Source: Opitutaceae bacterium
GTDB lineage: Bacteria; Verrucomicrobiota; Verrucomicrobiia; Opitutales; Opitutaceae
Assembly: GCA_016794625.1 (NCBI GenBank)
Contig: JAEUGY010000111.1
Span: 1-35,164, forward strand
Reading direction: 5' to 3'
Length of the DNA stretch: 35,164 nucleotides
Of this stretch, positions 1,693 to 20,277 are shown in pieces. A model generated the notes under the pieces. That model ran no database searches. It was given only the letters and a program-made list of their open reading frames with translations, and was not told where the DNA came from. Made by a program: the position numbers and the translations under genes. Each line of letters opens with the position of its first letter. The first letter of the stretch is position 1.

Positions 1693-3972
1693 GTGCGCTT
1701 TCGCCTCCCCACCGTCCGTCTGGTCCTTGCCTGTGCTGCCGCTTTGTCCGGGATGGTGGCGCAGGGGGCGGATGCTCTTTCTGGACGCGACCCGGCCACG
1801 CTGTACCGGCCCTTCCTCGCCGAGCGGGCCACGCTCTCTCGGGATGGCCGCAAGGTGGCCTACTCGGCCCACGAGGGACGGGACCTGGTGATCGTCGTGC
1901 AAACGCTGGACCCGACGCCGTCGCGCGTGAAAATCTCAATCGAGGACGGACCCTACGCTGGCGTGGACGCCCTGGAATGGGTCACCCCGGATCGCCTGGT
2001 CCTGGCCACACGCACCCCGGTCATCCATGTGATCGACATCGGCAAGAAGTCCGTCCGCCGGGTGCTGGATTCCACCCTGTTCGAGCCGTGGTCGGCCGAC
2101 CAGCCGGTCCCGCGCCCGCCCCGTTTCCTCGGACAGGTCGCCGGTCAAACGAATGCCGTCTGGATCGAGGGCGTCTCGAGCATGGTGGCCGACGAACAGG
2201 ATCCGTTCTCGCCCCTCGCCAATCCGTTTGCGGAGAGCGAACCCAACGAGGCCACCGGCGAGGGCACCGCCACCCGCCCTCGCTCGGGTCTCGGCGGCCT
2301 GGGTAGAGGCGACGGACCAACGCGGGTCCAGGTCTCCGAGCTGGTCAAACTGGATCTCGAAACCGGACTCTGGGACTCCTACGCGAGCGTCACGGATCGC
2401 ACCGACGGCACCGTCCTCTACGATCGCACCGGCCACGCCCGCATCAAGCGCACCGGCCCGACGACCCGGCAGTCCTATTTTCACCAGTATCCGGAAACCA
2501 ACTTTTATGAACGCTGGGAGGCCTTCGAACAGTTTCTCCCCGCGGTCGCCCCGCTGCGCTTCCACCTCGCGCCCGACGTGGCCCTCGGGGAGCGCTCCTA
2601 CCCGATCGGCTTCGGTCCCGATCCGGACCTGCTGTACTATGCCTCCAACGTGGGCACCGACACCACGGGTCTTTTCGTGCTCAACCTGAAGTCACAGGCC
2701 TCCACCTGCCTCGTCCCCGCCCCCGCCGGTTTCGACTTGATCGGGCTGGACCTGGCCCGCACGCCCAACCCGTTGATCTTCGACCGGGCCACCGGCAAAT
2801 TGGCCGGTGTCCGGCACTACGAAACGGAGCTGCGCACGACGTGGCTGGACTCCACCCTGGGCGAAATCGACACCACGATCGCCTCCAAGTTTCCGGGCCG
2901 GCAGGTGCGCATCCTGGATTGGGACGACGCCCGCGCCCACGTGCTCATCCGGGTCGAGGCCTCACACGATCCGGGTCGTCTCTTCGTCTACCACCGGGCG
3001 GAGGGCCGTCTGGTGGAGTTTCTGAAGCTCGCGCCTTGGATCAATCGCCTGGAATCGCACGTCACGCGGCCTTTCGATGTGACCTCGCCGCAGGGAGTCC
3101 GCTTGACGGGACGCTTGACCCTGCCGCGCGTCACCGTCGTCGAATCGCCTCCCCTCGTGCTCTGGCTGCATGACCTCCCGGGCGAGCGCACACCGCCCGG
3201 TTTCAATCGCGACGCCCAGGCGCTGGCCGATCTCGGCATGATCATCCTGCATCTCGACGCCCACGGCACCACCGGCCTCGGTCGGCGTCACCGCGAGCCC
3301 GGCGGGCCCGAAGCGCTCGACCAGCGGGTGGTCGACCAGTGCCTGCAGGCCATCGACTGGGTGGGCACCCAGACCCGCTTTGACGCACGGCGCGTCGCGG
3401 TCATCGGCGAGGGTGTGGCTGGATACGTGGCCATGCGGCTGCTCGCGCTGCACCCGCGTCGGATCCGCGGCGCGGCCAGCATCAACGCCCCGACGCATCC
3501 GGACCAGGTCGGCCAGGTTTCAGCGACACGCCGCCAGGCCGAGCAGCGCAAGATGCGCGAAGCCCGGGCCCGCTTCTCGGAGGAAATGGAAAACTGGAAC
3601 GGCACGGGCACGCCGCCGCGGCGGCCCACTCCCCCGCACGATCCGCTGGACTGGACGCGGGAGTCGCAGATGTGGTTCCTCGCCCAAGGCAAACGCCCCG
3701 AGCCGCTGCAAAAGGACGCGGAGCGCCTCGACCGGCCGGCCCTCTTCCTGCACGACCCCGGCCATGCCGCGGTGGCGGTCGAGCCGGTGCAGTCCCTGGT
3801 CAAGGCCATGCGCAAACGCAATGACTCGGTCGACCTGAAGCCCTTGCCCGCCGATGTGCACCAACCCGATCTGCCGATCCGGATCCCGTTGCTGGTGTAC
3901 CTGCGCGATTTTCTCAACGACACCTTTTATCGCTACAAGGTGGACATCGGCGAAACCAAGGAGCGCGACTGA
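1693..3972 (+). CDS. Exported S9-type alpha/beta-hydrolase with apparently lost catalytic Ser
   Basis: 759 residues from a GTG at 1693, chosen because it gives a good signal peptide (basic RFRLPTVR, then LVLACAAALSG, cleavage near AQGADA). An ATG at 1753 would remove it. The middle (about 40-440) resembles the beta-propeller-like half of prolyl-oligopeptidase-type proteins. The C-terminal part has the S9 hydrolase layout: LVLWLHDLPGERTPPGFNRDAQALADLGMIILHLD, then DQCLQAIDWVGTQTRFDARRVAVIGEGVAGY. Where active S9 enzymes have GxSxGG, this protein has G-E-G-V-A-G, so Gly574 sits at the nucleophile. The expected Asp (usually G..D..V) falls in LHDPGHAAV with no Asp in place, while a candidate His723 (ADVHQP) remains. 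I infer a non-catalytic binding protein. It is followed after 2 bp by the next gene, so the two are surely co-transcribed. Confidence 0.75.
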   Translation: MRFRLPTVRLVLACAAALSGMVAQGADALSGRDPATLYRPFLAERATLSRDGRKVAYSAHEGRDLVIVVQTLDPTPSRVKISIEDGPYAGVDALEWVTPDRLVLATRTPVIHVIDIGKKSVRRVLDSTLFEPWSADQPVPRPPRFLGQVAGQTNAVWIEGVSSMVADEQDPFSPLANPFAESEPNEATGEGTATRPRSGLGGLGRGDGPTRVQVSELVKLDLETGLWDSYASVTDRTDGTVLYDRTGHARIKRTGPTTRQSYFHQYPETNFYERWEAFEQFLPAVAPLRFHLAPDVALGERSYPIGFGPDPDLLYYASNVGTDTTGLFVLNLKSQASTCLVPAPAGFDLIGLDLARTPNPLIFDRATGKLAGVRHYETELRTTWLDSTLGEIDTTIASKFPGRQVRILDWDDARAHVLIRVEASHDPGRLFVYHRAEGRLVEFLKLAPWINRLESHVTRPFDVTSPQGVRLTGRLTLPRVTVVESPPLVLWLHDLPGERTPPGFNRDAQALADLGMIILHLDAHGTTGLGRRHREPGGPEALDQRVVDQCLQAIDWVGTQTRFDARRVAVIGEGVAGYVAMRLLALHPRRIRGAASINAPTHPDQVGQVSATRRQAEQRKMREARARFSEEMENWNGTGTPPRRPTPPHDPLDWTRESQMWFLAQGKRPEPLQKDAERLDRPALFLHDPGHAAVAVEPVQSLVKAMRKRNDSVDLKPLPADVHQPDLPIRIPLLVYLRDFLNDTFYRYKVDIGETKERD

Positions 3973-3974
3973 CC

Positions 3975-5738
3975 ATGCCACCCTGCCGCATCCTCCGGTT
4001 GCTTTTGGCCGCCAGCCTCGGCGTCTGCTTCACGTTGGCGGCGTGGGCCCAAACTCCGGCGCCCAAGGGCGCGAAAGGGACCAAGGCGGTGGCGGAAGGC
4101 CCGGTCGTCGATCTGCCGCCCTTGATGGTCGAGGGCTCCGCCACGCCACTGCGCTGGCGGTATGTCGCCCTGCCCGGACTCGAAGTCCTGTCCGTCTGCT
4201 CCGACGGCACCACCAAGGAATTCCTGCGTCGCTACTACCGGCAGCACCAGCTGCTCTCCTGGCTCCTGCCGGAGCGGTACCAGGGACGCTCCTCGGTGCC
4301 GGATGTGTACATCCTGTTCAACGAGGAGATCCACCGCGCCAATTCGGGTGAAATCGTCAACGACATGGTCAATCGCGAGACGGACCGCAAAGAGTCGGCG
4401 GAGTCGACCGAGAAGGAGCGAAGCCGCAAAGCGCGGGAGGCGCCCCGGATCCGGTTCCTGCCGAACATGCGGCTGCTCGATGTCGATTCGACCTGCGTCT
4501 TTGTCATCGTGCGCGAGTCAGAGCAGGACACGCTCACGTTCAGCTTCACCATCGACCGGGTGGGACAACTCCTGCAGCAGCGCCTCCCGGTGCTGCCTCC
4601 CTGGCTGATCGTCGGGGTGGCCGGCGTGTACGCCCAATCGAACCTACGCGAGGACATCCTCCGCATCGATCCCGCCCTCTGGCTGAACAGGGGAGAGTCC
4701 GAGGCCTTGAGTCGCGATGCCGACCGCCCGCGTTCGATCATGCCCATTCAGGACATGCTCGCGTGGCGTCCCGGCCGGAAGGCCACGGACGCCGGGGACA
4801 TGGACAAGCTCTGGCGTTCCCAATGCACCCTGTTCGTGCGGTGGGCGATGATCGCCAACAACAGCATCCGGCGCGACGCCCTCTGGACCTTCGTCGACCG
4901 CCTGGAAAAGGAACCGCTCAGCGAGTCGCTGTTCGAGCAGTGCTTCGGGTTTGGGTATTCGGAAATGCGCGACGTGCTGAGCGACTACCTGCCCAATGCC
5001 ATCGGAGAGGAACGCACCATCTCCGAGGCCGACCCCGGGCGCCCGCCACCGATCCCGCTGCGCGACGCCACACCGGCGGAGATAGCCCGGTTGCGCGGCG
5101 ACTGGGAGCGCATGGAGATCGCCTTCGTCCGCAGAAAACTCCCCGATCTTGTGTCCAAGTACGTCGACCAGGCGCGGGCCACGCTCCGGCGGGCTTACGA
5201 CAAGGGCGAGCGCGAACCCGGTCTGATGGCGGTCATGGGCCTGACCGAGATCGATGCCGACAACCGTCTCGCCGCCATCCCCTTCCTTGAAGCCGCCGCG
5301 GCCGCCGGGGTCGTGCGGCCGCGCGTCTATTTCGAACTCGGCTTCACCCGCTACGCCGCCCTCGTGGCCCGGCAAACCGACCCCGAGCACCCGGTATTCA
5401 CCCCGCAGGAATTGGATTCGGTCCTCACCCCGCTCTGGCAGGCACACCGCCAATGGCCACCCCTGTCCTCCGTCTACACCTTGATGGCGGAAGTCTGGAC
5501 CAAGGCCAAGACCCCTCTCGGCGCCGACGAGCTGCACGTGCTCACCCGCGCCGTCGAACAGTTCCCCTACGCCACCCAGCTCGCCCTGCGCAGCGCCTAC
5601 CTCCACGCCGCCCACCGCCAGTTCGACCAGGCCCGCCGCCTCCTGGAACTCAGCCTCGACTCCACCGACGACGAGGCCAACCGCGACCTCCTCACCCAAT
5701 CCCTCACCGAGCTGAACCGGGTGACCCCGAAGCCATGA
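3975..5738 (+). CDS. Exported peptidase-MA-like/TPR protein lacking the zinc motif
   Basis: 587 residues with a signal peptide (RILRLLLAASLGVCFTLAAWAQ, cleavage about residue 26). The ATG starts 2 bp after the preceding stop. The N-terminal half (about 45-230) resembles DUF1570/peptidase-MA-like proteins: a motif PDVYILFNEE (109-118), then the turn LPPWLIVGVAGVYA (207-220), the counterpart of the family's PxWLxEGxAxxxA. In active gluzincins a HExxH precedes this turn and the Glu of WLxEG binds zinc; here the helix reads FTIDRVGQLL and the Glu is Val, so no zinc site is left. The C-terminal half (about 365-585) is helical and TPR-like, with NRDLLTQSLTELN at the end. Pairing with an equally degenerate S9-like protein suggests a secreted two-protein unit with a binding role. 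Function unknown. Confidence 0.6.
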   Translation: MPPCRILRLLLAASLGVCFTLAAWAQTPAPKGAKGTKAVAEGPVVDLPPLMVEGSATPLRWRYVALPGLEVLSVCSDGTTKEFLRRYYRQHQLLSWLLPERYQGRSSVPDVYILFNEEIHRANSGEIVNDMVNRETDRKESAESTEKERSRKAREAPRIRFLPNMRLLDVDSTCVFVIVRESEQDTLTFSFTIDRVGQLLQQRLPVLPPWLIVGVAGVYAQSNLREDILRIDPALWLNRGESEALSRDADRPRSIMPIQDMLAWRPGRKATDAGDMDKLWRSQCTLFVRWAMIANNSIRRDALWTFVDRLEKEPLSESLFEQCFGFGYSEMRDVLSDYLPNAIGEERTISEADPGRPPPIPLRDATPAEIARLRGDWERMEIAFVRRKLPDLVSKYVDQARATLRRAYDKGEREPGLMAVMGLTEIDADNRLAAIPFLEAAAAAGVVRPRVYFELGFTRYAALVARQTDPEHPVFTPQELDSVLTPLWQAHRQWPPLSSVYTLMAEVWTKAKTPLGADELHVLTRAVEQFPYATQLALRSAYLHAAHRQFDQARRLLELSLDSTDDEANRDLLTQSLTELNRVTPKP

Positions 5739-5754
5739 GCCCGATGGAAGGAAC

Positions 5755-5795
5755 GGGGAACTCTGAACGCTGAATTCTTAACGCTGAAGTGTCCG
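5755..5795 (+). repeat. Sense heptamer array GAACTCT/GAACGCT/GAATTCT/TAACGCT/GAAGTGT
   Basis: Five in-register 7-bp units lie about 20 bp after the stop of the gene at 3975-5738, in GAA orientation on that gene's strand. Their core GAACGCT is the same as in the minus-strand array at 304-331. Confidence 0.65.
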
Positions 5796-5822
5796 GACCG
5801 AACGGTCCCCGGACAAAATCCT

Positions 5823-5920
5823 TTCGCCCTTCACTCTTCGCCCTTCGAACTTCCCGCCCACAGGGCGGGCCCATTCGTCATTCGTCATTCGTCGATCCAG
5901 CCCCAAGGGGCTGGATCGAC
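5823..5920 (-). repeat. 3' composite element of the MBL gene: stem-loop, GAATGAC repeats, stem-loop, GAA heptamers
   Basis: Read in the minus sense from the MBL stop codon at 5922: a perfect 14-bp stem with 2-nt loop (5891-5920, arm GTCGATCCAGCCCC), three GAATGAC-type heptamers (5874-5894), a perfect 7-bp stem CCCGCCC/GGGCGGG with 3-nt loop (5853-5869), then GAANNNN heptamers overlapping it (5823-5857). The same order occurs after the TonB receptor gene at 13178-13294. The first stem-loop may serve as a transcript end for either of the two convergent genes, although no T-run follows it. Confidence 0.75.
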
Positions 5921-5921
5921 T

Positions 5922-6980
5922 TCAGCTTCCCCAGCTCCAGCGTTCCGCTTCCCAGCGGTAGCCAGCACCCTGGGGGAGGATGCGGCCGAGGCCGGGCCAG
6001 GGGAGGTGGAAACCATAGGTGCGGGTACGGCGCTCGCTCAGTTCGGCAAACAGTCGGCGGCGGGTCGCCACGGCCTGCTCGGGCACGTGGTCGAATTCAA
6101 TGTACCACGACGGATCAGTGAACATGAGTTGGTGATGATGGGCGACATCCATGAGGTGGACGAGCGAGTCGCGGCCATCGCGCAGGAGCAGGGTGCAGTG
6201 GCCGTCCGTGTGGCCGGGCGCGGCTTGAAAGGTCACGAGGTCTCCGAGCGGCTGGTCGCCGTCCCGGTGTAGTTGTAGATTGGGCTGCAGTACCTCAAGC
6301 GCGGCCCGGACATCGCGGATCATGGCGGGAATGTTGTCGCGACGAAACGAACGGGAGAAGTCCGGGCTCGGCCCGCGCCAGAAATCGACCTCCGCCTTCA
6401 TCACCCGAAGCGCCGCGTTGGGGAACATCGGTTTCCCCGCGTGCACAAAGCCGCCGATATGGTCGGCGTGACCATGACTGAGGATCGTCTGGGTCACCTC
6501 CTCCCGGCGGATACCAATCTCGCGCAGCCCATCGGCGACCCAGCCGATGTTGGGATTGGTGCGTACGCCGAAACCACCATCGCAGAGAATGACTTCGCGC
6601 CCACGCCGCAGCACCAGGACATTGACGTAGAGCGGAATGCCGTCGACCCGCTCGCCGCGAGCCACCAGATCCGCCTGCATCGCCTCGCGCTGCTCCGGCG
6701 GGCGCATCTTGTCGAGGCGGTCATTGAACAGCATGTGCCCGTCGCTGATCGACCACGCCTCCACCGATCCGATGAGAAACGGGTAGACAAACGGCTTGGT
6801 GTGCGACTTCGGCGGAGGCGTCGGTCCCGGCGTCGCCACAGGACGCGCCGGCGAGGCGCCCGCGGCCGGGGTGGAAGCCGGAGCGTCGGTAGCCGCGGCC
6901 ACGCGACGAGGAAGCGCCACGAGCCCCAAGGCTGCTGCCGCTGCTCCGCAAAACGTCCGTCGATTCGGGGAAGTGGACAT
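5922..6980 (-). CDS. Tat-exported MBL-fold metallo-hydrolase
   Basis: 352 residues from the ATG at 6980. The N-terminus is a twin-arginine signal (SPNRRTFCGAAAAALGLVALPRRVAAA), followed by a Pro/Ala-rich linker to about residue 60. The metallo-beta-lactamase core has the zinc-binding HGHADHIGG (169-177) after a hydrophobic strand and the later AAPGHTDGHCTLLL block, which supplies the third histidine. The family hydrolyses esters, lactones, thioesters or phosphodiesters with one or two zinc ions; the overall layout (GIPLYVNVLVLRRGREVILCDGGFG) is like quorum-quenching lactonases and glyoxalase-II relatives, but the substrate cannot be fixed. Longer upstream starts exist but would run into repeat DNA. 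The gene is convergent with 3975-5738 and is flanked by heptamer arrays in inverted orientation (5823-5894 and 7044-7192). Confidence 0.88.
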   Translation of the reverse strand: MSTSPNRRTFCGAAAAALGLVALPRRVAAATDAPASTPAAGASPARPVATPGPTPPPKSHTKPFVYPFLIGSVEAWSISDGHMLFNDRLDKMRPPEQREAMQADLVARGERVDGIPLYVNVLVLRRGREVILCDGGFGVRTNPNIGWVADGLREIGIRREEVTQTILSHGHADHIGGFVHAGKPMFPNAALRVMKAEVDFWRGPSPDFSRSFRRDNIPAMIRDVRAALEVLQPNLQLHRDGDQPLGDLVTFQAAPGHTDGHCTLLLRDGRDSLVHLMDVAHHHQLMFTDPSWYIEFDHVPEQAVATRRRLFAELSERRTRTYGFHLPWPGLGRILPQGAGYRWEAERWSWGS

Positions 6981-7030
6981 GCCTGCATGCACGCAGAACC
7001 CCGCCCCTGAAGCCAGCCCGGACCAGCGGG

Positions 7031-7192
7031 CACCGCGTGCGCGGTGAAGTGCGAAAGGCGAAGAGTGAAGAGTGAAAAGACATGTCCCTCCCTCCTCCCA
7101 TTGTAGGGCTGGCCCTCGCGGCCACGCCTGCACCGCGTGAGCGGTGAAGGGCAAAGGATGAAAAGTGAAGAGCGAACGTCGAAAGATAAGAA
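7031..7192 (+). repeat. Two stem-loop-plus-heptamer units 100 bp apart
   Basis: The stem-loop CACCGC-GTGN-GCGGTG occurs at 7031-7046 and again at 7131-7146, exactly 100 bp apart. Each runs into GAANNNN-type heptamers in register: five at 7044-7078 (GTGAAGT, GCGAAAG, GCGAAGA, GTGAAGA, GTGAAAA) and seven at 7144-7192. The intervening 50 bp are unrelated to the heptamers. The block lies upstream of the minus-strand MBL gene, so in that gene's sense it is TTC-oriented. Confidence 0.7.
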
Positions 7193-7229
7193 ATTCGGAT
7201 AGTATGTCTTGGTAGCACCCATCAGAAAT

Positions 7230-7257
7230 TCAGCGTTCAGCGTTGAGCGTTCCCCCG
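7230..7257 (+). repeat. TTCAGCG heptamers
   Basis: Units TTCAGCG, TTCAGCG, TTGAGCG and TTCCCCC follow in register from about 7230, with GTTGAGCGTTCC repeated just after. They are the same units as at 304-331, here TTC-oriented and upstream of the plus-strand VOC gene. The array leads directly into the inverted-repeat element at 7276. Confidence 0.6.
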
Positions 7258-7275
7258 CGTTGAGCGTTCCCCCCG

Positions 7276-7387
7276 CGTTGGAGGTGGCCTCGATGAGGCC
7301 GCGACGGGACCGCCTGGTCCCGCCTCCTTTGTCCGATTTCGTCCCGCGGCGCCAATCCTCGCGGCCTCGGCGAGGCCACCTCCAACG
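7276..7387. repeat. 112-bp dispersed palindromic element, copy 1 (complete)
   Basis: Two 29-bp arms in inverted orientation, 7276-7304 and 7359-7387, differ at only about two positions; the outer part reads CGTTGGAGGTGG. Each arm contains its own small stem (GGCCTC/GAGGCC), and GGGACC/GGTCCC follows the left arm. It lies between the MBL and VOC genes. Related copies lie at 9489, 10661, 11688, 13072 and 17093. No open reading frame fits inside, so if mobile it would be non-autonomous. Confidence 0.75.
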
Positions 7388-7456
7388 GAGGGACCTGTCA
7401 TTCCCGTCATCTCCGGGCTGGATTCGTCCCCGCGGCCCTCGTACGTTCTTCTCATT

Positions 7457-7840
7457 ATGGTGTTTGAACACTTCGCCTTGAATGTCCCGGACGCCCGCGC
7501 GCACGCCCGTTGGTACGTGGATCACCTTGGTTTTCGCGTGGTCCGGGAAAAGACGGATTCCCCCTTCACCCACTTCCTCGGCGACAAGACGGGCCGGGTC
7601 ATCGTGGAGCTCTACTCCAACCCCTCCGCTCCCATTCTGCCCTTTGCGCAGCTGCTGCCCCTTTGTTTCCACGTCGCCGTCATCGCCGCCGACGCCCGCG
7701 CCGAAAGGAGCCGTCTGGAAGCCGCCGGAGCGACCTTCTTTTCCGAGGACAGTTTTCCCGACGGGACCCGTCTGATCATGCTGCGCGACCCGTGGGGCGT
7801 TTCCCTCCAACTCTGCCAACGCGCCCAACCCCTCGCCTGA
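7457..7840 (+). CDS. VOC-fold (glyoxalase-like) protein
   Basis: 127 residues, a single-subunit vicinal-oxygen-chelate protein. The first module is FEHFALNVPDARAHARWYVDHLGFRVV (3-29) ending in VIVELYSNP (48-56); the second is LCFHVAVIAADARAERSRLEAAGA (69-92) followed by LIMLRDPWGVSLQLCQR (106-122). Candidate metal ligands at the canonical four positions are His5, Glu51, His72 and Gln118. This resembles lactoylglutathione lyase-like and dioxygenase-like VOC proteins; substrate unknown. The ATG at 7457 places the first beta-strand correctly. Repeats surround it: an inverted-repeat element upstream, and a stem-loop with GAATGAC heptamers 6 bp after its stop. Confidence 0.85.
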   Translation: MVFEHFALNVPDARAHARWYVDHLGFRVVREKTDSPFTHFLGDKTGRVIVELYSNPSAPILPFAQLLPLCFHVAVIAADARAERSRLEAAGATFFSEDSFPDGTRLIMLRDPWGVSLQLCQRAQPLA

Positions 7841-7846
7841 GCAGCG

Positions 7847-7900
7847 CCAGCCCCGGAGAGGGCTGGAATGACGAATGACGAATTCCGAATGACGAATGAA
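7847..7900 (+). repeat. 3' element of VOC gene: stem-loop followed by GAATGAC heptamers
   Basis: A perfect 7-bp stem CCAGCCC/GGGCTGG with a 6-nt loop (7847-7866) begins 6 bp after the stop codon, and its last base is the first base of five in-register heptamers (GAATGAC, GAATGAC, GAATTCC, GAATGAC, GAATGAA, 7866-7900). Orientation is sense to the gene just ended, as at 5874-5920 and 13228-13294. No T-run follows the stem. Confidence 0.7.
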
Positions 7901-8254
7901 TCCGGAGTTCCCAAATGTGGCCGCGGCTTTAGCCGCATTCCGTCGGTCAACGAACGCGGAACGTGTATCTTCCTCCGACTCCCCTTCCCCATGGAGGGCG
8001 CCGCTCCAACGGCGCCGTTAGCCCCATGGCCACCCCTCGCGGGCGTGCCGGCACCCTGAGCCCGTTGAAGCGGTCAAGCGTGAAGCTTGAATTCGGCGTT
8101 CAACGCTCCGTCCACCCGCCACTCCCCCGAATTTAACACAATCCCCTCCTGATAAGGGAATTGCGAATCTCCCGCCCTTGCTGGCTTAAGGATTTCCCTT
8201 AAGTAAAAGTACTCGAACCCTCTCCAGGAGAGTCGATTGAAAGGACTACCTGCC
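7901..8254. other. Intergenic region before porin, with two small stem-loops and an inverted repeat
   Basis: No gene is seen. It holds stem-loops GCGGC-TTTA-GCCGC (7923-7936) and GGCGCCG/CGGCGCC with a 6-nt loop (7997-8016), a short TTCGGCG-TTCAACG pair of heptamers near 8092-8105, and the CTTAAGG/CCTTAAG inverted repeat at 8185-8203. The last 110 bp are AT-richer than their surroundings and are the likely promoter area of the porin gene. Confidence 0.5.
8185..8203. promoter_or_regulatory. Inverted repeat CTTAAGG-N5-CCTTAAG upstream of porin
   Basis: Perfect 7-bp arms with a 5-bp spacer, 51 bp before the porin ATG in the AT-rich part of the leader. The size suits a dimeric regulator's operator. 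It does not match the Pho box (CTGTCAT repeats), so phosphate control cannot be claimed. Confidence 0.4.
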
Positions 8255-9391
8255 ATGAAACTTCCCTCGCCCTGCCACGCTCTTTGGATTGCGACGCTTC
8301 TCCCGTTCGTCTGCACCGGCGCCACCATTGAAGAACGTCTGAAGGAGCTCGAGACCAAGGTCACCCAGCTCTCGGCGGAAAACGCCGCCCTGAAAAAGCA
8401 GGTGGGTCTGAATGACAAGGGCACCGGCCCCGCGCTGGTCACGGTAGCCGGCAAGGAAAAGTCGTTGTCGATCGGCGGATACCTGCAGGTCAACGGGGAA
8501 GTCGGCGAGGCGGCCGATGCCCGCTTTCCCGCCAACGACCGTCTGCTCATTCGCCGGGCCCGGATCACCCTGAAGGGCGCGTTTGCGGAGGGATTCGATT
8601 TCGTCTTCCAGTCCGACTTCGGCAACAACTCCATCGGGGGAGTCAGCGGCTATCGGGCCCAGATCACCGACCTCGCCATCAGCTGGTCAAAGTATACGCT
8701 CGCCACCCTCACCGCCGGTCAATTCAAGACGCCGTACGGCTACGAACAACTGCTGGCCGACACCCGAACTCTCACGGTTGAGCGCTCGCTGCCCAACGAC
8801 TCGCTCACCCTCTCCCGCCAAATCGGCGCCATGCTGTCGGGCACCACCGCCGACAAGCGCCTCAGTTACGCCGCCGGCCTGTTCAACGGCAACGGCGTGA
8901 ACAACGGTGCCAACGACAACGACCAGTTTCTTTATGTGGGCCGGGTCAACGGCACGGTCCTCTCCAGCGACCGGGCCGTCGTCACCCTCGGCGCCAACGC
9001 CTTCACGACGCGCGACACCGGCGCGTTTGTCGGCACCCGCACCGGCCGCGGTCTCGATGCCCAGCTCGTCGCCGGCGCCGCCGGCCTCTATGCCGAGTGG
9101 TTCCGCACTCACTTTGACCGTAGTTCAGGGATAGATACTGATGCCGAAGGCTGGTCGATCCTCGGCAGCTGGCAGCTCGTGCCCAAGACACTGCAGGCCG
9201 TGCTCCGCTACGAAACCTACGACCCCAACCGCGCGCTGAGTGGCGATGACACGCACCTCTGGACGATCGGTGCCAACTACTTCATCAAGGGCGACGACCT
9301 CAAACTCTCGGTCAACTACCTCCTCGGCGACCCCGCCGGCCCCCTCTCCGACCAAGGCCGCCTCCTCGGCCGCTTTCAAGTCATCTTCTAG
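8255..9391 (+). CDS. Outer-membrane porin, phosphate-selective porin O/P type
   Basis: 378 residues from the ATG at 8255, preceded by AAGGA at 8241-8245. A TTG at 8237 with AGGAG before it is an alternative start. Residues 1-23 are a signal peptide, then a short coiled coil (IEERLKELETKVTQLSAENAALKKQ, 25-49) of the kind that trimerises OprO/OprP-type porins or anchors them to the envelope. The rest is an alternating beta-barrel: LSIGGYLQVNGEV, LLIRRARITLKGAFAEGFDFVFQSDFG (the RRAR..L.G....F.F..D.. block typical of the O/P family) and a terminal strand ending GRFQVIF, with the C-terminal Phe needed for barrel assembly. Anion or phosphate selectivity is only a family inference. Confidence 0.85.
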   Translation: MKLPSPCHALWIATLLPFVCTGATIEERLKELETKVTQLSAENAALKKQVGLNDKGTGPALVTVAGKEKSLSIGGYLQVNGEVGEAADARFPANDRLLIRRARITLKGAFAEGFDFVFQSDFGNNSIGGVSGYRAQITDLAISWSKYTLATLTAGQFKTPYGYEQLLADTRTLTVERSLPNDSLTLSRQIGAMLSGTTADKRLSYAAGLFNGNGVNNGANDNDQFLYVGRVNGTVLSSDRAVVTLGANAFTTRDTGAFVGTRTGRGLDAQLVAGAAGLYAEWFRTHFDRSSGIDTDAEGWSILGSWQLVPKTLQAVLRYETYDPNRALSGDDTHLWTIGANYFIKGDDLKLSVNYLLGDPAGPLSDQGRLLGRFQVIF

Positions 9392-9488
9392 GTTCTCGGT
9401 CACGCCTCGGGTGTCTGATTTCTTAAAGCGACGCCAATCCCCGCAGGGTTGGCAATCCCGCCTACACCCGGATCCGATTCCTGCTTGT

Positions 9489-9532
9489 TGTAGGCGGCCT
9501 CGATGAGACCGCGACGGGACCCACGGGTCCCA
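9489..9532 (+). repeat. Dispersed palindromic element, half copy 2
   Basis: One arm (core GGCCTCGATGAGACCGCGA, with an altered outer part) followed by the perfect stem GGGACCC-AC-GGGTCCC at 9516-9531. It lies between the convergent porin and aldo/keto reductase genes, where the GGGACCC stem could also end transcripts. Confidence 0.6.
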
Positions 9533-9556
9533 TCTCCTTTCTTCCCTCGATTCGCA

Positions 9557-10582
9557 CTACACCGGCGCGGGGTTGCGCTCGGTGAAGCCGCGTTGGTGAA
9601 AATACGGGTAGGTCAGCGGCGTCGCACTCGCCTGATCGAGGACGGCGACCTGCGCCGGGGTCAGGGACCAGCCGACCGCCCCGAGGTTCTGACGGAGCTG
9701 CTCCTCGTTACGGGCGCCAATGATGACCGTGGACACCGTGGGACGCTGCAACAGCCAGTTCAAAGCCACCTGGGGAACGGTCTTGCCCGTCTCCGCCGCC
9801 ACCGCATCGAGCGCATCCACGACCCCGTAGAGGTATTCGTCATCCACGACCGGCCCCTGCGCGATTTCTGAGTTCAATCGGCTCGTGGCCGGCTTGGGCT
9901 GCCCCCGACGCAGTTTCCCGGTCAGGCGCGCCCAGCCAAGGGGACTCCAAACCACAGTCCCCACCTTCTGGTCGAGGGCCAGTGGCATCAGCTCCCACTC
10001 AAAGCTGCGCCCGATCAGCGAATAGTAGGCCTGGTGGGCGACGTGCCGGGCCCAACCGTATTTTTCCGAGATCGCCAGCGACTTCATCAGGTGCCAGCCG
10101 GAAAAATTCGAGCAGCCGATATAGCGAATCTTCCCGGCTCGCACAAGGTCATCGAGGGTGCGCAGGGTCTCCTCGACCGGCGTCGATGCATCGAAACCGT
10201 GCAGCTGAAACAGGTCGATCCAGTCCGTCCCGAGCCGGCGCAGTGCCGCCTCGACCGAGCGAGTCAGGTGGTGCCGTGACGAGCCGACATCATTCGGTCC
10301 TTTGCCCGAACGAAATGTGGCTTTGGTGGAAATCAGGACCTGATCACGCCTGCCCGCCAGGGCCTTGCCCAGCACCTCTTCCGAACGGCCGTTCGAATAG
10401 ACATCCGCGCTGTCGAAGAGCGTAATGCCCGCATCCAGGCAGACATCGACCAGGCGTTTGGCCTCATCGACCTCCTGGCCGCCCCAGGCACGAAAAAAGT
10501 CCGTCGTGCCACCAAATGTCGCCGTGCCGAAGCTCAGCACCGGCACCTTGAGTCCCGAACCACCTAGGTATCTATAGTCCAT
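9557..10582 (-). CDS. Aldo/keto reductase
   Basis: 341 residues, the normal length of a single-domain AKR (beta/alpha)8 barrel, which reduces aldehydes or ketones with NADPH. The catalytic tetrad is in place: Asp57 and Tyr62 (LFDSADVYSNGRSEEVLGKAL), Lys87 (ISTKATF) and His128 (DLFQLHGFD). The N-terminus YRYLGGSGLKVPVLSFGTATFGG and the cofactor segments IRYIGCSNFSGW (about 154-165) and VIIGARNEEQL (286-296) are characteristic of the YajO/Tas-like (aryl-alcohol dehydrogenase-like) branch. The ATG at 10582 is the natural start. The substrate is unknown; such enzymes are often general detoxifiers. It is convergent with the porin gene. Confidence 0.93.
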   Translation of the reverse strand: MDYRYLGGSGLKVPVLSFGTATFGGTTDFFRAWGGQEVDEAKRLVDVCLDAGITLFDSADVYSNGRSEEVLGKALAGRRDQVLISTKATFRSGKGPNDVGSSRHHLTRSVEAALRRLGTDWIDLFQLHGFDASTPVEETLRTLDDLVRAGKIRYIGCSNFSGWHLMKSLAISEKYGWARHVAHQAYYSLIGRSFEWELMPLALDQKVGTVVWSPLGWARLTGKLRRGQPKPATSRLNSEIAQGPVVDDEYLYGVVDALDAVAAETGKTVPQVALNWLLQRPTVSTVIIGARNEEQLRQNLGAVGWSLTPAQVAVLDQASATPLTYPYFHQRGFTERNPAPV

Positions 10583-10991
10583 AAAGTGTCTTTACCTTGG
10601 CCCCGGAGTGCCGGAGATCCCGCCTCCAGCATCTGAACTCTCGACGCGACATCAGAACCCGCGGAGTCGGCGAACCCGCTTCCAACGGAGGCAGTGGATA
10701 AACTTGGGGCCATCGGGTCAACCCACTCGCCAGCCTCGTTCCGAGTTCGCGTCCATTCATAGTCCATTCGAGGTCGTTTCGCGATCCAAGCCGTTGCATC
10801 GGCCCATCTGGCGCACCGTTGCCGGGGTTTGCATTCGGGTCAACCGGGTGGCTTGGTTTTTGCCGCCGCCCCGCTTGAATCGTAAAATCTTGCCTCGGCG
10901 GCTGTCCTTGACCACCTCGTTAGCGCGTTTCGGCGACCTCAGGCTCCCTTCGAGCCGGCGCCACCGTCCCCCCGTCCTCGTTCTCACCCTC
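10583..10991. other. Divergent intergenic region with a degenerate dispersed-repeat copy
   Basis: No gene is recognised. Positions about 10661-10693 (CGCGGAGTCGGCGAACCC, then GCTTCCAACGGAGG) are a decayed right arm of the CCACCTCCAACG palindromic family. The 100 bp before the cytochrome ATG include a TTGACC hexamer near 10907 but no matching -10 box that I trust. The remainder is featureless. Confidence 0.4.
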
Positions 10992-11441
10992 ATGAAAAAA
11001 GTCCTGTCCTTGTTCCTCGCCCTCGCTGTTTTGACGCCGGTTCTGCCGAGTCTCCATGCCCAGGAGTCCGGCAAGAAGGAAACCGAGTTGGAAACCGCCA
11101 TGGGCAAGATGAACGGTGCCTTCCGCAAACTGCGCCGCCAGATCACCGATGCGTCAAAGAACGCCGACTCGCTCGACTTGGTCGCGAAGCTCCGCGCCGC
11201 CGCCGATGAGTCCACCAAACTGATCCCTGCTCTGGCTGCTGAAAAGCCTGAGGCCGAGCGCGCCGCGTTCGTTGCCGCCTATAAAAAGCAAATGCAGCAA
11301 TTTATGGCCAGCTTGGCCCCGCTAGAGGCGGCCCTAAAGGCCAACGATAATGCGGCAGCCGAGAAGTTTGTGACCGAGCTCGATGGCCAGAAGAAAAAGG
11401 GCCACAAGGAGTTCAAGAAGCCCGACGAAAAGAAGAGCTGA
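10992..11441 (+). CDS. Cytochrome b562-like periplasmic protein
   Basis: 149 residues from ATG 10992. A signal peptide (MKKVLSLFLALAVLTPVLPSLHA, cleavage about 23) precedes an all-helical domain of about 110 residues, the size of E. coli cytochrome b562. The first helix ELETAMGKMNGAFRKL lines up with the b562 segment DLEDNMETLNDNLKVI, placing Met37 at the heme-binding Met7. The last helix KKKGHKEFKKP lines up with RNAYHQKYR, placing His138 at the heme-binding His102. The middle LVAKLRAAADESTKLIPA also fits. Both heme ligands therefore appear to be kept, and a four-helix-bundle b-type cytochrome is likely (there is no CxxCH). Its redox partner is unknown. An intrinsic terminator follows the gene, which is probably monocistronic. 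Confidence 0.75.
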   Translation: MKKVLSLFLALAVLTPVLPSLHAQESGKKETELETAMGKMNGAFRKLRRQITDASKNADSLDLVAKLRAAADESTKLIPALAAEKPEAERAAFVAAYKKQMQQFMASLAPLEAALKANDNAAAEKFVTELDGQKKKGHKEFKKPDEKKS

Positions 11442-11480
11442 CGATCCTCCCTCCGTCGGACGGTCTTCGGGATCGTCCAG

Positions 11481-11527
11481 AGGCCGCGGACACCGCTCCA
11501 CCGGGGCGGGCGTCGCGGCCTTTTTCT
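11481..11527 (+). terminator. Rho-independent terminator of the cytochrome b562-like gene
   Basis: Stem AGGCCGCG (11481-11488) pairs with CGCGGCCT (11514-11521), followed by TTTTTCTT. A second stem, GACGATCC/GGATCGTC (11440-11447 and 11470-11477), starts at the stop codon. This is the only stem in the window that I see with a proper T-run. Confidence 0.75.
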
Positions 11528-11687
11528 TGCCGTTTTGCTAATCCGCCGTCGTTGGCTAGCCTGCGCCATGACCCTTCGTCGCCTCCCCGATTTCAAACCC
11601 ATCGAAGGGCCCACCACGCCAGTGATTGAACCACCGATCCCGCGTTCGCGCGGTGCGGTGGCTCAAGTGCGAGCCAACGAGCGTGTC

Positions 11688-11800
11688 CGTTGGAGGTGGG
11701 GTCGCCGACCCCGCGCAGATGGGCGTCGCGTGAAGAGAAGGGAAAACGGAGGCGGACCCTGGCGGGCCCGTCGCGGCCTCCCCGAGGCCACCTCCATCGG
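11688..11800. repeat. 113-bp dispersed palindromic element, copy 3
   Basis: The left arm (11688-11715) starts CGTTGGAGGTGG and then has the stem GGGGTC-GCC-GACCCC. The right arm (11771-11800) has GGCCTC-CCC-GAGGCC and ends CCACCTCCATCGG. Total length matches copy 1 (112 bp). Compared with copy 1, the left stem has changed on both sides (GGCCTC/GAGGCC to GGGGTC/GACCCC), so pairing is kept. It lies between the cytochrome gene and the J-domain gene; I see no gene in the rest of the 478-bp gap. Confidence 0.7.
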
Positions 11801-11919
11801 AACCCCTGCGGATTATCCATACCCGGTCTCTTGGTTAACGAATACATGTCGCCGCGGGATCTGTGTCCCTCCGTGGTTTGCCAACGGGTCGAATCGCTTC
11901 AACGGTCGAAAAACCTGCG

Positions 11920-13041
11920 ATGAAGTCTGAACCGCGCCGGCCCAAGGCCGCAAAATCGCCGTCCAGCGCATCCGCCCCGCGGCGGACAGCGAAGGCCCAT
12001 CCGCCGGTCCGCCCGACCGGGCCGGGCACCCTGGTCGTGGTCGACAATCGTCCGCTGCGTCACACAGCGTGGGCGGAGTACCATCGGGCGCGGAAGCGGT
12101 CTGAAAAGGCCAATGCGGACCTGCGGCGGCATGAGGATGTCGACGTGCCCGCCTTCCGGGAGTGGTTTCACCGCACGTTTCCGGTCGAAATCTCGACCTT
12201 GCGACAGATCCACGAGGAGGTGGTGCTGAAGGGGGAACAGGTGCGGCGGGTGGACTGGATGAGCGACGTCACCGGGCGCTCTCCGCAGAGTGTCTGGCGC
12301 GAGTACAAGAAAGCCGAGCAACGTCACGCGGACCGGCGGGAGGAAGAGGTCCGCACGGGTCAGTCACAACCACGGATCAAGCCGGATCCTTACAGTCAGG
12401 ATCTGTCGAAGCTACTCGACGCGTTCTTCGATGCCGAATCGAGCGACGATGCGTCCTTCGACCCGTCCGGCGGGGGCCCCGCAGGCCCGGACTCCTCCGA
12501 CCCCTGGGACAACGACACCGACCCCACGGAGGATCGCAGTACTGACCCGGACCCCACCAGCCCGGCCAGCTCCCACGCCGCGTCCGACTTCCTGCCCGCC
12601 CGCGAGATTTACCGTCGCCTGGTGCAACACCTGCATCCCGACCGCGGCGGCGAATGGACCCCCGCCCGCGAGCGACTCTGGCACGAGGTGCAGGCGGCCT
12701 GGGCGGCCCGCGATGCCGACTGGCTGGCGCGACTCGAATCGGATTGGGAAAGCGCCCACGCCACCCTCCAACCCGATTCCCCGCTCAGCCACCTGCGCCG
12801 GGCCATTCGGGAACTCGAAGCCGCCCGCCGCGACGTCGAGCGCAAGCTCCGCGCCTATCGCAAGAGTCAGGAATGGCGCTTCACCACCTCCCTGCCCCAA
12901 CGCGCCAAACTCCACCGTCACCTCAAGGCCGGCCTCGAGCACGAACTGCAGTCCATCAGCGCGTATCTCCGCCACCTCGACGAACGACTCGCTTCCTGGG
13001 ACTCCCGCCGCTCCCCCCACCGCCGAGCCAAGAAGGAGTAG
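11920..13041 (+). CDS. J-domain-like protein with internal HPD motif
   Basis: 373 residues from ATG 11920. A GTG at 11863 could add 19, and no SD is seen for either. The N-terminal 35 residues are basic and disordered (KSEPRRPKAAKS). Residues about 40-150 are charged and helical (WAEYHRARKRSEKANADLRRHEDVDVPAFREWFHRTF). An acidic Asp/Ser/Pro linker spans about 170-220, then comes a J-domain-like segment REIYRRLVQHLHPDRGGEW (228-246) with the HPD tripeptide at 239-241, followed by ERLWHEVQAAWAARDADWLARLE. A basic coiled-coil tail ends the protein. J domains stimulate the ATPase of Hsp70 partners; the placement in the second half, after a flexible linker, is unlike DnaJ. Two Hsp70-like genes lie 8 kb downstream, but a link is only a guess. 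A short relic of a paralogue lies at 16758-16807. Confidence 0.7.
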   Translation: MKSEPRRPKAAKSPSSASAPRRTAKAHPPVRPTGPGTLVVVDNRPLRHTAWAEYHRARKRSEKANADLRRHEDVDVPAFREWFHRTFPVEISTLRQIHEEVVLKGEQVRRVDWMSDVTGRSPQSVWREYKKAEQRHADRREEEVRTGQSQPRIKPDPYSQDLSKLLDAFFDAESSDDASFDPSGGGPAGPDSSDPWDNDTDPTEDRSTDPDPTSPASSHAASDFLPAREIYRRLVQHLHPDRGGEWTPARERLWHEVQAAWAARDADWLARLESDWESAHATLQPDSPLSHLRRAIRELEAARRDVERKLRAYRKSQEWRFTTSLPQRAKLHRHLKAGLEHELQSISAYLRHLDERLASWDSRRSPHRRAKKE

Positions 13042-13071
13042 CCGGAAGGTCGGCCGTCAAAGATCGGCGCC

Positions 13072-13170
13072 CGTTGGAGGTGGGGTCGCCGCCCCCGCGC
13101 GGGTTGGCCCGTGGAGCGATTCAGGCGGGACTCGAGGGTCCCGTCGCGGCCTCACCGAGGCCACCTCCAA
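13072..13170. repeat. Dispersed palindromic element, copy 4
   Basis: The left arm starts at 13072 with CGTTGGAGGTGG and GGGGTC-GCC-GCCCCC (one mismatch in the stem). The right arm, from about 13144, has GGCCTC-ACC-GAGGCC and CCACCTCCAA. A GGGACTCGAGGGTCCC stem lies before the right arm. It sits 30 bp after the J-domain gene. Confidence 0.65.
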
Positions 13171-13177
13171 CAGCCAT

Positions 13178-13294
13178 TTCGAGCTTCACGCTTCGCCCTT
13201 CGAACTTCCCGCCCACGGGGCGGGTCATTCGTCATTCGTCATTCGTCATTCGTCATTCGTCATTCGTCATTCCGCGCCCGCTCCGCGGGCGCGG
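13178..13294 (-). repeat. 3' composite element of the TonB receptor gene, with six TTCGTCA/TGACGAA units
   Basis: Read in the minus sense from the receptor's stop at 13295: a 9-bp stem CCGCGCCCG/CGGGCGCGG with 5-nt loop (13272-13294), six perfect 7-bp repeats (13228-13269, TTCGTCA on plus; GAATGAC register on minus), the stem CCCGCCC/GGGCGGG with 3-nt loop (13208-13224), then GAANNNN heptamers (13178-13212). The order is identical to 5823-5920, and the segment from TTCGCCC through CCCGCCCAC is the same there. Confidence 0.8.
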
Positions 13295-16200
13295 TCAGAA
13301 CTTCCCGTTCACGCCGAAGGAGAACTGGGCGCCGTAGTCTTCGTAGTTGGTCAGCGCGGCCCAGGACGGCGCCACGGGGCCGGACACTTCCCATTCGGTC
13401 GTGTCGTTGAGGATGTTGCGTCCGGCGACAAAGACCGAGAACCGGCGGCTCAGCTGCCAGGCGAGGTTGGCATCCAACTGCGACCGTTCGCGGATGTACT
13501 CGCGGGCGTCCGTGAACGCATTGCTGGTATCGCGCAGCTGCTTGCCCTTGTAGTTGAGCAGCACATTGCCGGAAAAGCGTCCAAAACTGAAGTTCAGCCC
13601 CATGTTGCGGCTGCGGGGCGTGTAGTTGCCAAAATCGGACGGTGTGGTCCGCGATCCTGAGAGATCGAGGTGGGTGATGTTGCCCCGCACGGTCAGGTGC
13701 TTGCCCCATTCGCCGAGCTGGCGGATATTGGCGAGCGGGAACACCACGTTCGCTTCCCAGCCCTGGATGCGCGCATCGCTGACATTGATGCGGGTGGTGT
13801 AGCGATAACCGAGGTAATCTTGCGAGAGTCCGAGCTGGTCCAGCAACCCCGCGTCCGCCGTCAACGACAGATTGGAGAAGAAGTCCTTGATGTCCTTCTT
13901 GAAGTAGTTGAACGAGATCGTGCCATTGTGCGGCAGGTAGTACTCGAGAGCGAAGTCGTAGTTCTTCGCGGTCCAGGGCTTGAGGGTGGTGTTCGAGGAC
14001 GTGATGAAGCCCGGGATGCTGCCCGAGATATTGGGATCAAAGCTGACATTGTCGGACACGCTCAGGCTGGGCACGATATCGACGATGCGCGGGCGGCCGA
14101 CCGTCTCGGCGTAGGCCGCGCGCAGCTGCAACCCATCGAAGATTTCAATCGTGGAGTGCAGGCTGGGGAAGAAATGGTCGTAGTCGCGTTCATTGTACTG
14201 GCCGCGGTACTTGTAGACCAGCGCCACATCCTCGCCGGAACCGGCGACACCGGCCTCGGGTTTGCGCACGAATGCGCCATTGACCTTGATGAGGTCGCCA
14301 TTGGCATCGCGCTGGAAGACCGCGCTGCTGTCCTGTTTGAAGCCGTAGCCCCAGTTCTCCGTCAGTTCATAACGCACGCCGCCGACGAGGCGGACGCGGT
14401 TGAAGAGGCGGGTGTCACCCATGACGTAACCGGCCGAGATGCGCTCGTACACGAGCGGGGAGCGCACCGCGATGTTGCGCAGGGTGTCGCCGACATTCGA
14501 GGGGGTGCGCACAAAGTGGGTGGGATTCGCCTTGAAGTAGTCATAGACGACGTAGGGGCTGGGCCATTGCACACCCGGCCGGCCGAAGCCAGGACTGGTC
14601 CCGGCGGCCGCGGCGTCGAGAAACGCCGCCATGCCCTCATCCCCGTTGTTCAGCACGCCGTTCGGGCCGGCGTAGGTCCAGGCGATGAGCGCGTAGTCGA
14701 TCTCGCGTTCCAGCTCGGTCGCCGACCCGCCGATGGACACGCGGACCGGGATCCGGCCAAGGTCAAAGTCGCGGCTGACCTTGCCGCGGGCCTGCACGAC
14801 GGTGTCCTCGGCCGACTGCGGTTCGCCCTGCACCTGACCCAGGTTGTAGTTCGCCAGCACCGTGGAATCGATGACGCCGCCAGTGGCGTTGAGCGTGGCG
14901 ATGGGGCCGATCGCGCCGGTTTCGTTGTCGACGCCGGAGTAGTTGACCGTGCGCACATCCCTCAGGCTCGTGCCCATGCCGCGGAAGAAGCCCTTGGCGA
15001 TGTCGCGCGCATTGCTCGCCGAGTGGGAGAAGCTCGCACCGACCTCCGCCTTCCACAATCCGCGGTCCAGATTCCACTGGCCCTTCAATGTGCGAGTCAG
15101 CCCGTGCCGCTGCTGGAAGCTGTTGCCGAGCGAGGCCGTGCCCGTGCCGGAGGCGCCGGTCGATCCGTTGATGAAGGTCTCTCCCCACGAAACTGGAGTT
15201 CCGTTCCCCACATTGTAGGTCAACGTGCGGGTGCCCTGCATCTGCTCAAAGGCGTTGGCCTCCGCCGAGAAGGAGACGGTGTGGCCGTCCAGCGGCTTCC
15301 AGTCGAACTTGATCGAGCCGGAATTGCTGGTCTGAAGGTTGGCGCCATAGCTGGTGGCGGTGGAGTTGGTCTGGGGATTCGTGACCGAAGCGCCGGACCC
15401 GCTGTACCGCCGGCCGAGGACCGCGCGGTTCTGCAGGTAATACTGGCTGTTGGTCGACAGGTTGACCACGTAGCCGAACCGGTCGTTGACGGGCTCGAGG
15501 TAGTTGAATTTAAACGACGGGCGGATCTTGTAGGTGTCGCCGCTTCCCGGCCCGGGGGTCTGCTCGAATTCGAACGCCTTTTCGTTGACCGAAAAATAGG
15601 TGGAAAAGCCGATCTGGCGACTGGGGCTCTCGAAGGCGGACCGGCTGATGAAATTCACGGCGCCGCCGAGCAGATTGGCCGCGACATCGGGGGTCGGCAG
15701 CTTGATCACCTCGATGCGGGCAATATTGTTGATGTTCGCCTGCTCAAGCACGAACTGGCGCGTGTGCGTCTGGGTATTGCTCAGCGCAGCGCTGGCCATC
15801 TGGGCGCCGTCGAAGGTGACATTGGTGTAGTTGGAGTTGAAGCCGCGCACCATGATGCCGGACAAGTTGTTGCCATCCTTCATCTCAAAGCTGATGCCGG
15901 GCAGGTGCTTCACAAACTCGCCGATGTTGCCCTGGTTGATTTCACCGAAGGCATCCGTCGACACCACCTCGCGCTTGCTCGGGGCAAACCGCTGCTCGTT
16001 GATCGCAATGGCGGCGGCGTTGTACTCGCGGTCGGCTGCGATGACAAACGGGTTCAACTCCACCACCCCGTCGGCACCGGCGTCACCACCGCGCGTCAGG
16101 ACGACATCCTGCCGCACCGTTGAACCCGCAGGAACGATGACCTTGATCTCGCGCCGCTGCAGTCCGGTGAAAAACACCTCGAGGGTCACCTCACCGGCGG

Positions 16201-17045: not shown

Positions 17046-17092
17046 GCCTTCGCGCCTCCGCGTGAGAACCGGCCGAGATGCGCTAAAGTGGC

Positions 17093-17139
17093 GGGACCGA
17101 GGGTCCCGTCGCGGCCTCAGCGAGGCCACCTCCAGCGGA
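17093..17139 (-). repeat. Dispersed palindromic element, half copy 5
   Basis: Stem GGGACC-GAG-GGTCCC (17093-17107), then GGCCTC-AGC-GAGGCC and CCACCTCCAGCGG, the right arm of the family. It lies about 65 bp before the cytochrome c ATG. Confidence 0.65.
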
Positions 17140-17203
17140 GCGTGCTTCGACCAAGGCAACGGTGCGGGGTTGCTCCCCGGAGGCGAACTCCTACGTTCCT
17201 GCC

Positions 17204-20132: not shown

Positions 20133-20157
20133 GAGTGTCATCCCCCGGATGACACTC
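20133..20157. promoter_or_regulatory. Palindrome 1 upstream of Hsp70 operon
   Basis: Perfect 11-bp arms around CCC: GAGTGTCATCC and GGATGACACTC. Its centre is about 200 bp before the DUF2760 ATG. The same 23-bp frame appears in the two sites that follow. Confidence 0.7.
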
Positions 20158-20198
20158 TCCTCCGACGGGTCGCCCCTTTCCGGCCCGACCTCGGATAG

Positions 20199-20221
20199 AC
20201 TGTCATCCGGCGGATGACACT
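20199..20221. promoter_or_regulatory. Palindrome 2 upstream of Hsp70 operon
   Basis: Arms TGTCATCC and GGATGACA around GGC, with the outer A and T also symmetric. Its centre is 65 bp from that of palindrome 1. Confidence 0.7.
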
Positions 20222-20254
20222 GACGGACGGGTAGTTGCCCGTTTTTCGGAAGGG

Positions 20255-20277
20255 AGTGTCATCGGGGGGATGACACT
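20255..20277. promoter_or_regulatory. Palindrome 3 upstream of Hsp70 operon
   Basis: Arms AGTGTCATC and GATGACACT around five G residues; its centre is 56 bp from that of palindrome 2 and it ends 68 bp before the DUF2760 ATG. The outer arms match palindrome 1 exactly while the centre differs, as expected for protein recognition of the arms. It is unlike CIRCE (TTAGCACTC-N9-GAGTGCTAA). Confidence 0.7.

Follow-up and report, generated by a model that had tools for sequence, protein, structure and literature searches.

The window analysed here, the 35,164 nucleotides of contig JAEUGY010000111.1 from an Opitutaceae bacterium (Verrucomicrobiota), contains genes whose products were assigned by Pfam to an MBL-fold hydrolase, a glyoxalase-fold protein (VOC) and a TonB-dependent receptor. 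At all three gene ends a perfect stem-loop is found 0, 1 or 6 nt 3' of the stop codon, followed by GAATGAC heptamers in the sense of the gene just ended (Table 1). The original prediction, made from the letters alone, had described this arrangement, and the measured distances (1 nt for MBL, 6 nt for VOC, 0 nt for TonB) bear it out. The same is true for the second stem CCCGCCC/GGGCGGG with further GAANNNN heptamers, which is present behind the MBL and TonB genes and missing behind the VOC gene. The MBL stem-loop consists of the core CCAGCCCC/GGGGCTGG, extended outward. Allowing at most 1 mismatch, GAATGACGAATGA occurred 10 times in the window compared to 0.02 expected occurrences. Predicted RNA folds left the GAATGAC units mostly unpaired, with z-values of -4.0, -1.4 and -3.3 for the three sites. 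The GC-rich stem plus T-run of an intrinsic terminator was not seen, the T-run being absent after the stem-loop at all three window sites, and positions 5500-13500 of the window gave no Rfam match up to an E-value of 1. The gap 5739-5921 between two convergent genes is entered by heptamer cassettes from both sides, each in the sense of its own gene.

Table 1. Positions of the stem-loops, heptamer cassettes and adjoining stop codons in the window.
Feature	Position	Strand	Remark
MBL-fold gene stop	5922-5924	-	element starts after 1 nt
First stem-loop, MBL-fold gene: GTCGATCCAGCCCCTTGGGGCTGGATCGAC, 13-bp perfect stem, 4-nt loop	5891-5920	-	
GAATGAC heptamers (T cassette), MBL element	5872-5893	-	
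Second stem-loop CCCGCCC/GGGCGGG, MBL element	5853-5869	-	
G cassette GAAGTTC GAAGGGC GAAGAGT GAAGGGC GAAA, MBL element	5822-5853	-	
C cassette, sense, 3' of plus-strand gene 3975-5738	5750-5788	+	tail to tail with MBL element
VOC (glyoxalase-fold) gene stop	ends 7840	+	6 nt to stem-loop
VOC stem-loop CCAGCCC-CGGAGA-GGGCTGG	7847-7866	+	
VOC T cassette GAATGAC GAATGAC GAATTCC GAATGAC GAATGA	7866-7899	+	
TonB receptor gene stop	13295-13297	-	0 nt to stem-loop
TonB stem-loop, 10-bp perfect stem, loop GGA	13272-13294	-	
TonB T cassette, seven GAATGAC units	13224-13272	-	
Second stem-loop CCCGCCC/GGGCGGG, TonB element	13208-13224	-	
G cassette GAAGTTC GAAGGGC GAAGCGT GAAGCTC GAAA, TonB element	13177-13208	-	
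Stem CACCGC/GCGGTG and G cassette	7031-7080	+	upstream of MBL-fold gene on opposite strand; copy away from stops

The element was then traced through the genome of the window (G000; 6.45 Mb, 127 contigs) and a sister genome of the same genus (G001). It consists of a perfect, GC-rich hairpin and a GAANNNN tail, the final base of the hairpin being at the same time the first G of the tail; there are three classes of tail, one of which, C, is stemless. In G000 the 14-mer GAATGACGAATGAC was matched 124 times and its reversed control 0 times. A total of 47 GAATGAC arrays were found, of which 46, with 2 to 14 units each and 114 of the 124 matches, were analysed. Array 47 (contig C126, L277) holds the other 10 matches and was left out of the array counts; it has no stem, lies antisense to both neighbours and ends with its tail 46 nt (counted by eye) from a stop. 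Runs of at least 4 GAA units numbered 102 at period 7, whereas none of the other periods between 4 and 12 gave more than 1, and 94 of the 102 were intergenic. The three cassette classes are T (GAATGAC, GAATTCC), G (GAAGTGC, GAAGTTC, GAAGAGT, GAAGGGC) and C (GAACGTT, GAACGCT, GAATTTT); unit order recurs within the G and C cassettes, and the classes can succeed one another. Using a threshold of 6 bp, a perfect stem ending at the run start was present in 30/36 T and 28/44 G runs, 0/19 C runs and 0/3 others. This makes 58/102 runs, versus 177/4080 random intergenic anchors and 135/4080 anchors matched for GG or GAA. The arrangement is thus not due to chance. In 55 of the 58 stem-bearing runs the last base of the stem was the first G of the run, and the base before the array, where not C, was G in 31/31 arrays. 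Counting all 46 T arrays including short ones, 29 had a stem of at least 6 and 33 of at least 5 bp. The 144 T and G junctions of both genomes comprised 88 perfect stems, 7 with one or two mismatches and 49 without a stem. GGA and GGG were their commonest loops (11 each), and 44 distinct left arms occurred among the 95 stems. Mismatches were compared as a possible mark of selection at the RNA level, but with 1 G.T and 2 A.C cases they were too few. The full four-part order seen in the window is a minority, as a G cassette followed within 90 nt of 12/46 GAATGAC arrays, and in 8 of the 12 cases this cassette was preceded by a perfect stem of at least 6 bp. A generic 3' hairpin system was considered and ruled out, since a perfect stem of at least 7 bp that begins no more than 12 nt 3' of the stop was found in only 28/709 genes. 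Twelve of these 28 stems run into heptamers; 6 of the 28 lie in 20 stretches not picked for arrays, and 0/6 have heptamers. A further hairpin family, AGTGTCATC/GATGACACT, lies at window positions 20134-20277, and a 20-bp stem of this type in L229 spans the stop of a called gene near position 3628 of the minus strand.

With respect to genes, T arrays within 40 nt of a stop were sense in 18 and antisense in 3 cases in G000 (two-sided p-value of 0.0015) and sense in 10 versus 1 in G001, at least 4 places being common to both genomes. For all three classes and a limit of 45 nt the ratio was 36 to 4 in G000, to which class C contributed 9 sense and 0 antisense, and 11 to 0 in G001. The stem side was nearer to a gene than the tail in 39/45 arrays of G000, in 36/42 after merging by gap and strand (p-value of 3e-6), and in 13/16 merged arrays of G001. 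Compared with the 37 kb of gap DNA from the 20 stretches not picked for arrays, tail-to-tail gaps (5.7 kb) contained 13 of the 42 merged G000 arrays and head-to-head gaps (10.8 kb) 5; 14/18 C cassettes lay in tail-to-tail gaps. Starts within 40 nt of G000 T arrays were found 4 times on the stem side and once on the tail side, and in 6 (G000) and 4 (G001) cases a class G head had a start no more than 45 nt away. We are aware of the fact that this sense bias is partly built in, since a GAATGAC array read forward supplies a stop in all three frames and reversed none, and the called stop lay inside the element in 7/18 near-stop sense arrays. Counting only stops outside the element left 10-12 sense versus 3. 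The exact number varies with the treatment of L159, whose stop lies in a degenerate unit, and of L167, which has a TAG in another frame just before the hairpin. The expectation of a genome-wide sense preference after stops, by which the original prediction was to stand or fall, therefore held close to stops and failed in gaps between genes of the same direction, where 12 T arrays were sense and 12 antisense in G000 (the uncounted array 47 being antisense as well). The corresponding counts in G001 were 6 and 3. A general transcript-end element was not supported: the hairpin side faces an opposite-strand gene, i.e. its start, in 20/46 arrays, 47 arrays is a low number for a genome of 6.4 Mb, and no T-run follows any of the three window stem-loops.

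The orthologous gene ends that were compared lacked the element, which was therefore acquired. Within the 420 nt examined behind the MBL-fold gene neither a GAATGAC array nor such a stem was present in G001, G004, G005 and G006; G004, G005 and G006 had no heptamer element at all in this region, and G001 showed a C cassette with its inverted partner. The L167 gene of G001 had no element in the 110 nt examined. For the TonB receptor the element was found in none of ten relatives, the best of which share 50 to 53% identity and are too distant for clean empty sites. Ten gene ends carried T cassettes in both G000 and G001, with upstream flank identities of 74 to 87%. Tail lengths differed at shared gene ends (12 versus 3 units at L151/L194). 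By eye, paired stem changes were seen from C:G to T:A at L151/L194 and L179/L193 and from G:C to T:A at L168/L184; at L156/L188 the whole stem was replaced, and L163/L195 is stemless in both genomes. The arrays L154/L197 occupy the same gap with a different cassette order and were therefore counted as a shared gene end and not as a shared place. The L154 gene has three different ends in G000, G001 and G012, its last residues being derived from the element in G000 and G001. Several G001 contigs end at or near elements (L197, L198, L199, L282), so that the copy number in G001 may be underestimated.

Two genes have supplied sequence for their own stem: the outer left arm consists of the former gene end, of which the right arm is an inverted copy made anew, for the whole arm at L153 and for its outer part at L148. 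The L153 gene (L153:13985), of the isocitrate/isopropylmalate dehydrogenase family according to Pfam, ends with CGATCATCCGCAATCTTTGA, followed by TTGCGGATGATCG and a G cassette. Its stem reads CGATCATCCGCAATC-TTT-GATTGCGGATGATCG, and the whole right arm is an inverted copy of the gene end. Loci of 13 relatives were taken, of which 12 were readable (the G001 contig stops there), and a stop-spanning stem of more than 6 bp was found in 0/12. The ATP-grasp gene of L148 ends with CGTGTGA in G000 and G001, and near relatives have the same protein end and mostly the same DNA. The right arm, TCACACG, which leads into AAATGAC and heptamers, occurs only in G000 and G001; the other 12 relatives lack it and have no stop-spanning stem of more than 5 bp there. 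The mark of a template-switch hairpin, one arm newly made as the reverse complement of an ancestral stretch next to it, was thus found at these two genes. At L154 the left arm matches the conserved RAR codons of G012 at the protein level only, which is suggestive. L179 was dropped as a fold-back case, since both of its arms are partly present in the coding sequence of relatives. Template switching is reported to create and repair perfect stems by reverse-complement copying (PMC8794818), and in its fold-back form yields stems as at L153 and L148. It would also explain why a stem is either perfect or lacking altogether and why changes come in pairs, with no need for selection at the RNA level.

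Taken together, we slightly favour the interpretation that the element at the three sites is a mosaic repeat dispersed in this lineage, resembling the repetitive extragenic palindromes (REPs) and bacterial interspersed mosaic elements (BIMEs), the stems of which arise or are repaired by fold-back template switching and which serves as a 3' untranslated region (UTR) where it follows a gene. Fold-back template switching during DNA synthesis would make the stems and keep them perfect, the stem and a dispersed heptamer tail would come to share a single G as their junction, and slippage would alter the length of the tail. Copies would persist mainly at the ends of genes and be rarer between divergent ones, where promoters would be hit. 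An element behind a stop would be transcribed as a 3' UTR. A hairpin this close to the stop (0-6 nt) should act like REPs of E. coli, by ribosome stalling or by blocking 3' exonucleases. For the three window genes the likeliest effect would be ribosome stalling with mRNA cleavage, as for stop-proximal REPs of E. coli. Such an effect is presumably incidental or peculiar to single genes and not a genome-wide 3' signal. Several observations speak against this interpretation. The fold-back origin rests on two genes, and many stems fall into families that recur (CACCGC, CCAGCCC, CCCGCCC) and were perhaps just carried along. Class C is stemless (0/19) and yet placed in the same way, so the stem alone cannot explain the placement. 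One-sided stem breaks were seen by eye at three shared places (L168/L184, L169/L198, L157/L196), and stop-spanning stems of at least 8 bp with no GAA heptamers behind them occurred in 3/418 and 3/291 genes, one of the former (L178) running into C-like units. No enzyme could be tied to the element: the Y1_Tnp locus L208 is flanked by TTGGAGGTGG REPs, and a heptamer cassette was found in 0/4 such loci. Finally, genes were called by our own codon-usage script. To our knowledge heptamer repeats have no accepted origin. Since the genus offers occupied as well as empty sites and two of the stems were copied from genes, the origin of heptamer repeats and of perfect transcript-end hairpins becomes testable.

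The main alternative is a selected 3' UTR signal, in which the stem and single-stranded GAA heptamers bind a protein or stabilise or terminate the transcript, while selection maintains position, sense and stem. The 36 to 4 sense ratio near stops, which includes the stemless class C, the paired stem changes between species and the predicted folds with unpaired GAATGAC units agree with it. On the other hand, the genome has just 47 GAATGAC arrays, T copies between genes of the same direction are half antisense, orthologous genes manage without the element, no T-run follows the three window stems, window positions 5500-13500 match no Rfam model, and template switching predicts paired changes as well. 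We consider such a signal possible, though improbable.

Mobilisation as a REP/BIME element by a Y1 transposase of the REP-associated tyrosine transposase (RAYT) type, with the heptamers inside the cassette, appears rather unlikely. Four Y1_Tnp matches lie above the cut-off, GGAGGTGG REPs surround one Y1_Tnp locus, and a high enrichment of GTAG repeats is reported for O. terrae, a member of the Verrucomicrobia (PMC3733652). However, the four Y1_Tnp loci are free of heptamer cassettes within the 2.3 to 3.2 kb examined, no common tag precedes the stems, and the stems differ from site to site. The small RAYT-like Y1-transposase gene in L208 has TTGGAGGTGG REPs on both sides, and members of the TTGGAGGTGG family are located in the window at 7277-7390, 9487-9540, 11687-11802, 13071-13172 and 17088-17140.

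Outside the genus, the GAATGAC heptamer is widespread, while the union of stem and tail was observed in G000 and G001. Arrays of three GAATGAC units occurred in at least 116 stretches from many phyla. A junction stem was present in 2/121 arrays (115 stretches of other genomes, L125 left out), compared to 12/17 in the same test of G000 arrays with at least 3 units. The 14-mer was present in 9/57 genomes searched including G000, with more than 11 matches only in G000 and G001. Across phyla the sense count was 36 to 9 with in-array stops included; for natural stops only it was 20 to 11 (p-value of 0.15) among the 121 arrays, i.e. no clear bias, a further 19 stops being supplied by the array and 34/121 arrays lying inside a called open reading frame. 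Behind a relative of the L148 gene in G014 (L307), sense heptamers start right at the stop and are followed by a hairpin and inverted heptamers. GAATGAC arrays with an inverted array behind them occur in several phyla (L044, L053, L067, L075, L144, L146) and would allow a gap to fold on itself, and near position 3401 of L099, from a Planctomycetes metagenome-assembled genome, an array adjoins, by eye, a tRNA-like sequence. The spread over phyla, together with heptamer repeats already known (PMC4679880, PMC4692102), would fit ordinary simple-sequence repeats, i.e. heptamer arrays grown by slippage with chance hairpins at GC-rich gene ends. This explanation is hard to maintain against the stem rates in G000 versus other genomes and versus matched anchors, the exact register of stem and run, and the recurring unit order of the G and C cassettes. 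Literature searches that covered heptamer repeats and REPs as well as template switching and Verrucomicrobia gave no recognisable description of the stem-tail union in titles and the beginnings of abstracts, most subscription papers lying outside their scope, and the exact repeat strings in three spellings gave no match.

Still less probable is a reverse transcriptase or telomerase-like enzyme that copies the folded-back 3' end of a gene or mRNA and adds GAANNNN via the terminal G, the product re-entering the chromosome; if true, a template-directed enzyme would explain sense bias, stop position, gene-copied stem and stem-tail register together. Intrinsic terminators beside which repeats chanced to insert fit hairpins right after stops and the 13/42 merged arrays in tail-to-tail gaps, but with no T-run after the three stems and no hairpin at the orthologous ends read they are the least credible explanation.

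Among known systems, the heptamer tandem repeats of the short tandemly repeated repetitive (STRR) and TAACTGA type are intergenic arrays of 7-nt units, as are the arrays described here. STRR heptamer arrays with embedded small dispersed repeat (SDR) hairpins occur in heterocystous cyanobacteria; they resemble our element in that heptamer arrays contain small hairpins and differ in the repeat unit. TAACTGA repeats of Beggiatoaceae, Cyanobacteria and Bacteroidetes form short intergenic arrays with a preferred strand (PMC4679880) and thus share the arrangement, the strand preference and the occurrence in distant phyla. In the BOGUAY genome they are mostly located just before start codons and in forward orientation (PMC4679880), whereas here stops are favoured and a hairpin is present: a start within 40 nt of the tail side was found for 1 array, a stop within this distance of the hairpin side for 18. 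Heptamer repeats are reported to be over-represented in many bacterial genomes, and the GGGAATC repeats of Xanthomonas and GGGGA(C/T)T repeats of Nostoc are likewise intergenic heptamer arrays, of the G-quadruplex type, with no stem-tail register mentioned in the text available (PMC4692102). Template-switch hairpins share the perfect stems made by reverse-complement copying; they were described for RNA genes, and the accessible part of the report mentions no repeat tail (PMC8794818). The REP, BIME and REPIN sequences of E. coli, Pseudomonas and Opitutus are, like the many copies found here, short dispersed intergenic palindromes in mosaics. In our element the stem varies between sites and is partly derived from the site, the GAANNNN tail follows in register, and no RAYT flanked by the same repeat lies alongside (0/4 Y1_Tnp loci). 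The tag of REPs was not recovered, as the commonest 4-mer before the left arm accounted for 8/87 cases, GTAG or GGAG within 6 nt for 5/87 and CGTC directly before the stem for 0/87; read backwards, the T tail contains CGTC in every unit, though not directly at the stem. Of the 4,072 REPs of E. coli, 446 are located no more than 15 nt downstream of a stop, and REPs at such a distance can cause ribosome stalling accompanied by mRNA cleavage (PMC12306157, citing earlier work). The window stems, at 0-6 nt, fall inside this range.

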